Source: Gemmatimonas sp.
GTDB lineage: Bacteria > Gemmatimonadota > Gemmatimonadetes > Longimicrobiales > Longimicrobiaceae
Direction: 5' to 3'
Assembly: GCA_009380025.1 (NCBI GenBank)
Contig: WHSP01000007.1
Span: 1 to 64,000 of the forward strand
Length of the DNA: 64,000 nucleotides
Within the stretch, counting starts at the first letter, position 1, and each line of letters starts with the position of its first letter. Below are positions 19,842 to 53,329 of the stretch, piece by piece. The notes below the pieces were generated by a model that saw only the letters and a list, made by a program, of their open reading frames with translations, was not told the origin of the DNA and ran no database searches. The position numbers and the translations under genes were made by a program.

Positions 19842-22256
19842 ATGGCCGACTACAAGTTGATCGGACAGAGCATCGCGCCGCAGGATCTCGTGGCCAAGGT
19901 CACGGGACGCGCGAAGTACGCTGAGGACTTCCGAGCCGAAGGGATGCTGTTCGCGAAGCTGTTGGCCAGTCCCATGCCCCACGCCCGTGTTCGCGCCATC
20001 GATCTCTCCGGCGCACTGGAGGTGGAAGGCGTCGTCGCGGTCCTTACTCCTGAGGATCTGCCGGAACCGGAGCCAGGCGAGGAGCCATTGCTGACGATGG
20101 AACCTCGCTACGAGGGTCAGCCGATCCTCGCAGTGGCCGCCGTGGATGAGCTCACCGCCGCGGAGGCGATCGAACGAGTACGGATCGATCTCGAACCCCT
20201 TCCCTTCGTTCTGAATCCGCTCGACTCGCTCCGCCCGAACGGTCCGGACGCTACGCTCGTCGGCAACGTCTGGATGGGGGAAGACGAAGAGGAGCGGATC
20301 GGCCAGCTGAAGTGGACGGAGGCGGACTTCCAGGGTGTCGGGTCGGACGAGTTGCCGCGGGGTCAGCATGTCGACGAGTGGGAGTGGGGGGAGAATGTCG
20401 ACGCGGTCTTCGAGCGAGCGGACATGGTTCTGGAGGAGACGCTCTACCATCAGTCCCAGACGCACCACCCGATGGAGCCCCGGACGTCGATGGCCTACTG
20501 GCAGAACGGGAGGCTGTACCTCCACTGCTCGACGCAGAGCGTCGCGGTGACCCGCCGGAGTATCGCTGCCCAGATGGACCTCGACCTTGCCGATGTGGTC
20601 CTGATCTCGGAGTACTGCGGTGGCGGCTTCGGGTCGAAGGCCGGTGGCAGCCTCATTGATATCGTGCCGGCGATGCTCTCGCAGAAAGCGGGTCGTCCGG
20701 TCATGCTACGGATCTCACGTGCCGAGGAGACCTCCGTTGGACGCGCACGTACCGGCATGCTCGGATGGGCAAAGATGGGGTTCCGGAGCGACGGCCGCCT
20801 GCTCGCCCTCGATCTCTTCCTGGTTCAGGACAACGGTCCGTTCGGTCGCATGGGCGATTCGTACAGCGCATCCGGTACGGCGTCACTCAACTACTCGCCC
20901 GAGAGCATGCGGTGGCGTGGGGTCGCCGTGCTCACCAATACGCCACCTCGGTCCGCGCAGCGCGCTCCCGGAGGCGCCCAGGCCATCGCGATGATCGATC
21001 CCATGATGGACCGAGCCGCCCGCCGCCTCGGGATCGATCGTCTCCAGATCCGTCTGATCAACGCACCCGGGCAGGATGGCGTTTACGGGTCCGGGAGGGC
21101 TCCGGTGACCAGCTCGTACGCGCGGGAGGCGCTGCAACGCGGTAATGAGCTCTTCGACTGGGAGGAACGGGTGCAGAGGAGCGGGCAACGGAACGGCTCC
21201 AAGGTCCGCGGAGTCGGCGTTGCGCTCAGCAACTATGCTGCTGGGAGCATCGGGTACGACGGCTTGGGCGTCATTCGCCCGGACGGGATCTTCTATATCC
21301 ACCAGGGCATAGGTAATCTGGGCACGCATTCGGTGTTCGACACCGCCCGGACGGCCGCCGAGCTGATTGACATGCCCTGGGAGCGTTGTCAGATCATCTG
21401 GGGCAATACGAGCAACCACGCACCTCACAGCTCGATCCAGGCGGGGAGTCAAACGACTTACGCCCACACCCGGGCTAACTATGCCCTCGGGGAGGGGGTG
21501 CGGGCGCGTTTGCAGGAGCTCGTGGCCGCGGACCTCGGCGGGTCGCCGGAAGACTACGAAGTGGCTGGCGAGCGGGTCTTCCGGCGCGGTTCACCTGGCA
21601 CAGGGATGACGTTCGCACAGGCAGCCGAACGAGCGATCGAGCTCGGCGGTCGCTTCGACGGGCACGAACTGCCGGACGACATCGACGCCATGACCCGTGC
21701 CTCGGCCACTGCCCTGGCGGGTCAGGGGCTGGTCGTGGCCGCGAAAGACACCCGCCCCAGAGAAGGGACGACGCGCGCGTTCGTCGCCACGTTCCTCGAA
21801 GTCGATCTGGATGCGGAGACGGGGGTCGTCGATATCCTCGACATCGTTTCGGTCGCCGATTGCGGTACGGTACTGAACCCCCGAGGCCTCATTGCTCAGG
21901 TGAACGGCGGCGTCATCCAGGGTATCGGCATCGCTCACAGCCAGAAGTGGGCGATCGATCCCACTTGGGGCGTACACCTCGCCAAGGGCATCGAACCCTC
22001 CAAACCACCGACCATTCTCGATCTCCCGACGACGCTGACCGTCGAGGCGGTCGGGCTGCCCGATGCGAGCAACCCAATCGGTGCGAAGGGGATCGGCGAG
22101 GCTCCGGTCGGCGCAGGGGCCGGTGCGTTGATCTCCGCCATCGAGGACGCGATCGGTGGTCAGCATCCCAGCCACACCCCGATGACTCCGGACAAGGTCC
22201 TCAACATCATCGAGAACGATTGCCTGCCCTGCGGGCGACTCGAGACGCACCTTTGA
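19842..22256 (+). CDS. Xanthine dehydrogenase/aldehyde oxidase-type molybdopterin-binding subunit
   Basis: 804 residues covering the small aldehyde-oxidase/xanthine-dehydrogenase domain (KVTGRAKYAEDF, then LEVEGVVAVLTPEDLP) and the large molybdopterin-binding domain (CGGGFGSKAGG, QRAPGGAQA, and near residue 750 KGIGEAPVGAGAGALI with the catalytic Glu). Such subunits hydroxylate purines, aldehydes or related substrates. Strong GAGGAGGAGG before the ATG supports the start. No 2Fe-2S or FAD subunit lies next to it, and no Tat signal is visible, so electron acceptor and substrate are unknown. Confidence 0.9.
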   Translation: MADYKLIGQSIAPQDLVAKVTGRAKYAEDFRAEGMLFAKLLASPMPHARVRAIDLSGALEVEGVVAVLTPEDLPEPEPGEEPLLTMEPRYEGQPILAVAAVDELTAAEAIERVRIDLEPLPFVLNPLDSLRPNGPDATLVGNVWMGEDEEERIGQLKWTEADFQGVGSDELPRGQHVDEWEWGENVDAVFERADMVLEETLYHQSQTHHPMEPRTSMAYWQNGRLYLHCSTQSVAVTRRSIAAQMDLDLADVVLISEYCGGGFGSKAGGSLIDIVPAMLSQKAGRPVMLRISRAEETSVGRARTGMLGWAKMGFRSDGRLLALDLFLVQDNGPFGRMGDSYSASGTASLNYSPESMRWRGVAVLTNTPPRSAQRAPGGAQAIAMIDPMMDRAARRLGIDRLQIRLINAPGQDGVYGSGRAPVTSSYAREALQRGNELFDWEERVQRSGQRNGSKVRGVGVALSNYAAGSIGYDGLGVIRPDGIFYIHQGIGNLGTHSVFDTARTAAELIDMPWERCQIIWGNTSNHAPHSSIQAGSQTTYAHTRANYALGEGVRARLQELVAADLGGSPEDYEVAGERVFRRGSPGTGMTFAQAAERAIELGGRFDGHELPDDIDAMTRASATALAGQGLVVAAKDTRPREGTTRAFVATFLEVDLDAETGVVDILDIVSVADCGTVLNPRGLIAQVNGGVIQGIGIAHSQKWAIDPTWGVHLAKGIEPSKPPTILDLPTTLTVEAVGLPDASNPIGAKGIGEAPVGAGAGALISAIEDAIGGQHPSHTPMTPDKVLNIIENDCLPCGRLETHL

Positions 22257-22381
22257 TCGCACCTGAGTACCGGAACGCACGGCGACGTCCGAGGCTCTTC
22301 GCGAGCTCTTCGTGGAGGGCCTCGGAGCGTTTGAAATCCCGGGGCCAAGATAGGACCTGTGTGAGTCGATGTGGCGGCAGG

Positions 22382-22676
22382 TTACAGCTCGGTCGGAAAA
22401 CCTCGGGCGGCGTGATGAACGGTGAGAATGTGAATGCTGTCGGGGCCAACCAGTCGATAGACGACTCGATAGGGAGATTCGATCATCTCTCGCACCAGCG
22501 GGTCGGAAAATTTAGGCACCATGCGACCCGACTCTGGAAAACGGGTAGCTCGCACGGCGGCACGAATCAGTTTCGCGATGAGCAAGTCCGCGTAATGGGG
22601 TGAGTCCCGACTGACGAATGCGTGGGCAGCGGCTAGGTCCCTCGCACGCACGCTCGGCCCAGAGGAGGCGCCTCAC
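22382..22676 (-). pseudogene. ParE/RelE-family toxin, frameshifted near its N terminus
   Basis: The frame from a GTG at 22651 encodes a ParE-like toxin body (ARDLAAAHAFVSRDSPHYAD, ESGRMVPKFSD, PYRVVYRLVG, ILTVHHAARGF) but lacks the first beta-strand. That strand is found in another frame: a GTG at 22676 overlaps the antitoxin stop by four bases (GTGA) and reads MRRLLWAERA before leaving the toxin frame near 22642-22652. Joining the two gives a normal RelE/ParE start. A one-base shift, genuine or an assembly error, best explains this; the alternative is a toxin truncated to the GTG at 22651. Confidence 0.7.
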
Positions 22677-22855
22677 TTGAGGAACTGCTTCTTGACCTCC
22701 TCATGTGGTACGACATGGCCCTCCTCAGACTGACGCATTCCCTCCTCGACCTTCGCGATGAAGCAGAGTCGTTCAATTGCGTCCTGGATGGTGGCATTGT
22801 CGGGAAGCGTACGAACCGCTTCGATCGCCCGTTCCTTTTCAGACACGGTAGGCAT
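22673..22855 (-). CDS. Antitoxin of a ParE/RelE-type toxin-antitoxin pair
   Basis: About 60 residues from MPTVSEKERAIEAVRTLP. The sequence NATIQDAIERLCFIAKVEEG and HVVPHEEVKKQFLK follows the small antitoxin family encoded in front of RelE/ParE toxins, where it neutralises the toxin and usually represses the operon. The open frame extends to 22948, but the added residues look non-coding. Its stop overlaps the original GTG of the frameshifted toxin gene. If the toxin is dead, this antitoxin is an orphan. Confidence 0.7.
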   Translation of the reverse strand: MPTVSEKERAIEAVRTLPDNATIQDAIERLCFIAKVEEGMRQSEEGHVVPHEEVKKQFLK

Positions 22856-23305
22856 AGGCGGAGATTCTACATGCTGGTGGGGGGGGGCGGGCATCCCGTG
22901 AAACCGATCATGCTGTTTACACTTGGCGGGCCTGATCGTTCTCCTCAAGCTCGTTCAGGATGTCAGTTGGTGCCGTGGCCGGACGCAAGGGCGGCGCTCG
23001 GAAGGGCAGCGAGCACGATGGCCGAAACCATCCCTCGCAGCCCGTGGAAACTCGCCCCTCCATTCACCCCTACCGCTGCAGACATTTCTACTTCACTCAA
23101 CCGGCTTTTCTATTTCACGGTGACAGGAATGGAGATCGAGGGGCTAGAGTGAAAGCTACACTCCCTGCCCGGCATCGAGGCACATTCTAGGAAAAGCAAT
23201 CGGCAGAGGCGTGACGCTAAGGAATTCGTTGACACGGTGCCCGAGCGAGGCGATCATTCGAGGGATCGTGAATTCCTTAGCGATAACCTGCCCGCCAGAC
23301 CTGTC
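22856..23305. other. Intergenic region between toxin-antitoxin pair and permease
   Basis: No gene supported. It contains a run of nine G near 22879 and a perfect 13-bp inverted repeat described separately. The open frames here show no family resemblance. Confidence 0.4.
23215..23282. repeat. Perfect 13-bp inverted repeat upstream of permease gene
   Basis: CGCTAAGGAATTC at 23215-23227 is repeated in inverted orientation as GAATTCCTTAGCG at 23270-23282 with a 42-base spacer. It ends 23 bases before the permease ATG. No T-run follows, so it is not a standard terminator; it could be a regulator site, an mRNA hairpin in the leader, or the ends of a small element. Confidence 0.6.
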
Positions 23306-52703: not shown

Positions 52704-52919
52704 GTGTCTATAAGAAAAACGAGCATCGAGATAGACGGCGGCCTTCTTGAGGAGGTGCGTCGAGTACTAGGGACGCGGACACTCAGGGAAACCGTAGAAC
52801 AGGCGTTCCTCGCCGTGCTGCGTGAACGGGCCCGTCGCGAGGAGATCGAGGCGCTCAGTTCAATGGATGGCATGGATCTCGACGACCCTGAAGTCATGGC
52901 GTCGGCGTGGCGAGATTGA
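52704..52919 (+). CDS. VapB-type antitoxin
   Basis: 71 residues from the GTG at 52704, which has AGGAG about six bases upstream; the long frame to 52467 is not supported. MSIRKTSIEIDGGLLEEVRR and VLGTRTLRETVEQAFLAVL fit the VapB ribbon-helix-helix start and RARREEIEALSSMDGMDL the toxin-neutralising tail. It should repress its own operon and bind VapC. The toxin gene directly downstream is interrupted. Confidence 0.8.
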   Translation: MSIRKTSIEIDGGLLEEVRRVLGTRTLRETVEQAFLAVLRERARREEIEALSSMDGMDLDDPEVMASAWRD

Positions 52920-53329
52920 GCGCGCGATAGCTGGTCGACAAGAGCGCACTGGCTCGGATGCCCATGACACGTGTGCATGAGCGACTGGCGCCGATCATTG
53001 CTGCGGGAGAGGCGGCTAGCTGCGCGTTGGTCGATCTCGAAGTGCTCTTCAGTGCGCGGAATGCGAGGGAATACGAGCGGATTCGTTCGAGGCGAGAATT
53101 GTCATACCTGCACGTGCCGAACAGCGACGCGATCCTGAATCGCGCGATCGAGGTACAGGGGAAGCTCGCAAAGCGCGGCCAACACCGTATCCCGATTCCC
53201 GATCTGATCATCGCCGCAGCGGCCGAGTCCGCCGGGCTCACGGTCCTGCACTACGACGCGGATTTCGATCTGATCGCAGCGGTTACATCCCAGCCAGTCG
53301 AGTGGCTCGTTCCTCGCGGGACCGTATAG
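52916..53329 (+). pseudogene. VapC-family PIN toxin with in-frame amber codon
   Basis: From a TTG at 52916, overlapping the vapB stop by four bases, the frame reads MSAR, then TAG (52928-52930), then LVDKSALARMPMTRVHERLA and continues to 53329. The PIN acidic residues are kept downstream: Asp in LVDKSAL, Glu in LVDLEVLFSAR, Asp in IPIPDLIIAA and near LTVLHYDADFD. In relatives the TAG position is usually Tyr. Starting at the ATG at 52958 loses the first catalytic Asp. Expression would need suppression or a non-standard start, so it is called a probable pseudogene. Confidence 0.72.

Follow-up and report, generated by a model that had tools for sequence, protein, structure and literature searches.

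The window, meaning the whole stretch of 64,000 nucleotides analysed here, contains two toxin-antitoxin pairs (Table 1). The toxin of the first pair, located on the reverse strand, is encoded in two reading frames. In the sequence and the list of ORFs, the antitoxin stop codon shares bases with a GTG (22676-22674), which results in a GTGA junction. The frame opened by this GTG encodes the first ParE strand, MRRLLWAERACE, and belongs to an ORF of 54 aa (22676-22512; N-terminus MRRLLWAERACEGPSR; stop codon 22514-22512), for which the Pfam search returned no matches. The body of the ParE toxin is found in another ORF (22651-22382; N-terminus MRARDLAAAHAF), which matched the ParE_toxin profile PF05016 at positions 9-87 of 89 with 36.8 bits (E 5.9e-9), above the curated cut-off of 23 bits. 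The body is read one base further on than the strand-1 frame, i.e., in the antitoxin's own frame, with the TGA lying between the two. A previous sequence-only reading had proposed that the toxin starts in a separate frame coupled to the antitoxin stop by GTGA, and the sequence, the ORFs and the relatives described below all confirmed this arrangement.

When all switch points were scored against six relatives, the best-scoring one was located at approximately 22640, after residue 12, for four of them; a tie between 22646 and 22640 was obtained with L042, and L033 favoured 22646, six bases earlier. By the numbering of the predicted model of L031, an intact relative, the frame change falls inside the first helix and not at 22651. 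The body frame contains a single ATG, GTG or TTG codon in the stretch from the antitoxin stop to the body, namely the GTG at 22651, which is merely the first start codon available in this second frame.

The antitoxin showed 78% identity to that of L031 and 70% to that of L032. It had no match in Pfam, and only RelB/ParD models were hit in NCBIfam, weakly and below their cut-offs. The layout of the pair is that of a type II operon, with the antitoxin adjacent to the toxin, on the same strand and overlapping it at the GTGA. Promoter and terminator scans of the region 22200-23250 found nothing. With strand 1 in the other frame, the window copy does not encode a complete ParE protein in a single frame and, judged by its sequence, is a broken member of PF05016 rather than a demonstrated working toxin.

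Table 1. Features of the two toxin-antitoxin pairs of the window and of the other split ParE loci of the same genome.
Feature	Position	Strand	Remarks
Antitoxin gene, intact, 60 aa	22673..22855	-	ATG at 22855, stop TGA 22675-22673
Toxin N-terminus, first frame	22641..22676	-	GTG overlapping the antitoxin stop; 12 codons (strand 1 and start of helix 1)
Three-G run, frame changes by one base	22639..22641	-	Switch-point scoring
ParE body, second frame, including stop codon	22382..22639	-	PF05016 match; 61-67% identity to L031, L032 and L033
89-aa ORF from GTG 22651	22382..22651	-	Strand 1 and the beginning of helix 1 missing
VapB-type antitoxin, intact	52704..52919	+	PF09957, 26.9 bits
VapC-type PIN toxin	52916..53329	+	PF01850, 38 bits, profile 18-118
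ParE locus C166			About 28.1-28.5 kb; profile 23-88, earlier part in another frame; change at a run of six C
ParE locus C133			About 1.6-2.0 kb; profile 1-35 and 35-89, in two frames
ParE locus C90			About 6.9-7.3 kb; profile 1-53 and 54-88, in two frames

The second pair is of the VapBC type (PF01850) and resembles the first in that its antitoxin is intact and its toxin is cut near the start. The cause of the interruption is different. The TTG assumed to be the start codon of the PIN toxin overlaps the antitoxin stop, and after four codons it is followed by an in-frame TAG (52928-52930). The PIN body (52931-53329, forward strand) remains in the same frame past this TAG; the lesion is a stop codon and not a frameshift. 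The TAG directly precedes the residues LVDKSAL, where the PIN fold is taken to begin. The earlier claim that the window holds two pairs with damaged toxins and intact antitoxins therefore stands as far as the damage is concerned, with the qualification that one lesion is a change of frame and the other an in-frame stop codon. Elsewhere in the genome of the window (G000), the PIN toxins of L130 (G000:C433:7181-7453) and L134 (G000:C443:1620-1862) are apparently split over two frames, and the match to a PemK-type toxin in L152 (G000:C459:10676-10945) contains one TAG.

Intact relatives and the start of the toxin

Relatives of the toxin body were present in 13 of 98 related genomes (the genome of the window, G000, being excluded), and the named genome collection yielded 17 loci with such relatives. 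The closest were L031 and L032 (67% identity each) and L033 (61%). No relative was detected in the viral contigs searched, and the plasmids searched contained a single distant one (34%). L031, L032 and L033 matched PF05016 with 65.0-66.8 bits, from position 1 or 2 to position 88; consequently, profile positions 1-8 correspond to the part missing from the body frame of the window. The predicted model of L031 (mean pLDDT 89.9) comprises a strand at residues 3-6 and a helix at residues 8-22, and the PDB chains nearest to its predicted fold included 6x0a, 5cw7 and 8c24, titled ParDE or ParE, among the first ten.

An upstream antitoxin match was found for 23 distinct loci outside the window (two of these matches being weak, with E values of 2e-5 and 0.001), and in 21 of them the toxin body had the offset of an overlapping stop and start. 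The overlap was exactly GTGA or ATGA in 14 of the 21. Both exceptions, L002 from the window's own genome and L024 from G015, are themselves split genes. A fusion of antitoxin and toxin by readthrough of the stop codon was considered and rejected; the shared frame of body and antitoxin is due solely to the difference of one base, and this arrangement is absent from all 21 intact junctions.

The alignment comprised 18 of the 37 distinct loci outside the window, which were picked for a clear start and are mostly the closest ones; among those left out were the split genes L002, L003 and L024, L047, truncated at the end of its contig, and L015, whose body frame lacks a start. Strand 1 (mostly LxWT-like) shares one frame with the body in each of the 18 intact relatives aligned, and the start lies at or beside the antitoxin stop. 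The comparison of orthologues suggested by the sequence-only reading thus bears out the one-base difference in the window. The same reading would have been contradicted by orthologues that start at GTG 22651 and lack the additional strand, and no start equivalent to this codon was found among the 18.

These data also bear on the possibility that a shorter toxin is produced from GTG 22651, by a restart 21 bases past the antitoxin stop, and works without strand 1. Ribosomes could conceivably restart this far past a stop codon, the 89-aa ORF is open and its body is conserved. However, such a product would, by the L031 model, lack strand 1 together with part of helix 1. The missing part holds W6 and A10, which are present in the first frame of the window and do not vary among the 11 relatives that make up alignment A1 (across the larger set of 18, W6 is replaced by F in L041 and L043, and A10 by S in L044 and L045). 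Together with the lack of any aligned relative starting at this position, this makes a functional short toxin very improbable.

To an even lesser degree do we credit a programmed frameshift that would join both frames and set the dose of the toxin. The frame changes a short distance past the coupled start, a place at which low-level shifting would throttle toxin output; at C166, another ParE locus of the genome, it coincides with a run of six C, presumably a plausible +1 slip site; and the distant relative L015, from another genome, has a possible N-terminus out of the body frame. On the other hand, no shift is needed in any of the 18 aligned intact relatives, and no stop codon adjoins the shift site in the window. 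The four split sites of the genome differ (three +1, one -1) and share no common motif by eye, and the possible shift in L015 is likewise of the -1 sense. A check for programmed frameshifting had been proposed earlier; it brought no support, as a conserved frame change at a common slip motif was not encountered.

Full-length genes prevailed among the PF05016 matches of 60 related genomes. When full length was defined as a profile start of at most 5 and an end of at least 85, 78 of the 90 matches above the cut-off qualified (14 matches below it were left out). Five of the 12 that failed span positions 1-73, 3-74 or 1-75 and may be intact short variants. Two individual relatives are noted here separately. 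L024 (1480-2000; G015:C87), from a different genome within the same family, is likewise a frame-split ParE relative. The distant L015 (G054:C104:9281-9511) lacks a start codon in the frame of its body, has a possible N-terminus in another one, and may represent a further split copy.

Split ParE genes against the background of frame errors

The PF05016 search of G000 returned six matches at E values up to 0.01, which correspond to four loci: C456 (the window), C166, C133 and C90. All four are frame-split. An open antitoxin frame lies upstream of each of them, and the antitoxins of C133 and C90 matched PhdYeFM (63.4 and 58.2 bits, respectively). The frame changes, read as three +1 and one -1, occur at different points of the protein. 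On visual inspection, each of the four lesions amounts to a frame change by one base close to a short run of G or C.

Such a pattern could also originate from the assembly; the organism would then carry an undivided toxin gene, and the difference of one base would be an error in the draft consensus. For the window locus, we regard this as the main alternative and a serious possibility, although not the favoured one. Homopolymer indels in long-read assemblies often give frameshifts in gene calling, as stated in an excerpt of PMC9262707. A one-base change beside a short run of G or C also has the look of an assembly error, and both C133 and C90 are at most 2 kb away from a contig end; however, the run at the window site is short, comprising three G. 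The background was estimated with a composition-based detector of frame switches trained per genome. In G000, 24 robust frame switches were found in 340 kb of coding sequence (7.05 per 100 kb), in comparison to 4 in 278 kb (1.44 per 100 kb) in G001, its genus relative, i.e., an approximately fivefold difference in favour of an error. The genome G008 (L094-L113), with 79 robust switches in 349 kb of coding sequence (22.6 per 100 kb) and long contigs, looks like an unpolished long-read assembly and possibly illustrates the appearance of a heavily affected one. The assembly of G000 is accordingly somewhat indel-rich. The window itself accounts for 3 of these 24 events in G000 and for 64 of the 393 kb, a point against an assembly error. 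On the same contig, the last 12 kb (L052, bases 64001-75822) contain three robust frame switches, a higher density than in the window.

Corrected for the recovery of the detector, which amounted to 347 of 800 test indels, the rate for G000 was approximately 16 per 100 kb, or 0.047 per gene of 291 bp, an approximate figure given that events are called by composition and may include long gene overlaps. At this rate, the chance of the other three ParE loci all being hit is 1e-4. The expectation of about 0.05 per toxin-sized gene is close to the proportion of incomplete response-regulator domains, 2 of 45; the remaining 43 Response_reg matches above the cut-off cover at least 100 of 111 positions (six matches below the cut-off were left out). 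Other toxins of the genome were whole in 23 of 27 cases (PIN 17/20, BrnT 3/3, PemK 3/4). For PIN, 2 of 22 matches (C187 and C55) were dropped as weak and unclear; C443 (split) and C467 (whole), both scoring below the cut-off, are among the 20 retained.

Under the assumption of a uniform error rate, the broken state of four ParE genes out of four differed significantly from that of the response regulators (Fisher's test, p = 7e-5; 6e-4 without the window locus) and from that of the other toxins (p = 0.002; 0.009 without the window locus). Errors near contig ends may be commoner, and the coverage of accessory regions in a metagenome may be lower than that of core genes, to which the response regulators belong. 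The four split ParE genes thus represent a clear excess over the estimated error rate, which argues against the assembly as their common source.

The conservation of the body was consistent with either a recent lesion or an error. At sites where L031, L032 and L033 agree, the rates of change in the window body were 0.20, 0.07 and 0.26 for codon positions 1, 2 and 3, respectively. Three of 18 conserved columns were changed in the window toxin, in comparison to 0-4 in the leave-one-out controls, and two of the three were unanimous in the 18 relatives. An excess of the window toxin in relative-rate tests passed the 5% level only in comparison to L031, with two of three outgroups; the window antitoxin also showed such an excess, with one outgroup. 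As far as can be judged from the sequence, the body appears still mostly constrained and shows little sign of long decay. Since it remains so, the lesion in the window is either recent or not real, and the constraint counts among the points in favour of an assembly error.

Possible fate of the toxins and their antitoxins

With four of four ParE genes split against an expectation of about 0.05 per gene, and with the control families mostly whole, the best reading of the data is that the toxins were inactivated and the antitoxins kept. We consider it probable that the window locus carries a recently inactivated ParE toxin with a retained antitoxin, one of four such loci in the genome. In the intact relatives, a ribosome that finishes the antitoxin would be able to restart on the overlapping GTG or ATG and produce the toxin, a coupling suggested by the overlap itself. 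In the window, a change in length by a single base inside helix 1 would have inactivated the toxin gene, probably recently, and left the antitoxin gene intact. A restart at GTG 22676 would yield 12 toxin codons, after which translation would continue in the wrong frame as far as the stop codon of the 54-aa ORF. No whole toxin would be made, because the ribosome enters the wrong frame after these 12 codons. As all four ParE genes found are split, the cell appears to possess antitoxins and no working ParE toxins. We infer a lesion carried by the organism itself, an inactive toxin and continued production of the antitoxin.

Among known systems, the window pair is closest to ParDE. The body scores above the PF05016 cut-off, the intact relatives match the whole profile, the antitoxin lies upstream with overlapping stop and start, and the predicted fold of L031 is closest to ParDE and ParE chains. 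It departs from this system in that its first 12 toxin residues are in the other frame and its antitoxin matches no Pfam family and only the weak RelB/ParD models noted above. The characterised ParE toxins inhibit gyrase. Decaying toxin-antitoxin loci as such are already known. The work on ccdO157 reportedly provides an example of decaying chromosomal loci and orphan antitoxins, which the window would resemble in its inactivated toxin and retained antitoxin. The decay of chromosomal toxins by deletion or nonsense mutation, as well as inactive toxin mutants, is described in a portion of PMC7167474, and orphan antitoxins in a portion of PMC7192599. In contrast to such loci, every ParE gene found in G000 is broken, putatively in the organism itself, whereas three other toxin families consist mostly of whole genes.

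More tentatively, every ParE toxin of G000 may have been silenced independently by a one-base change while the antitoxins persisted, which would amount to a disarming of the whole family. Its cause would perhaps be the cost of ParE to the host, and the antitoxins could possibly serve as a guard against incoming elements bearing ParE. If the differences are assembly errors, the case would be a warning to look for frame errors in the short toxin genes of drafts before labelling these as pseudogenes. If the lesions are real, the genome would show four parallel losses of the toxin with retention of the antitoxin in one toxin family, and would serve as a natural test of whether the retention of antitoxins has a purpose, namely anti-addiction, or they merely decay later.
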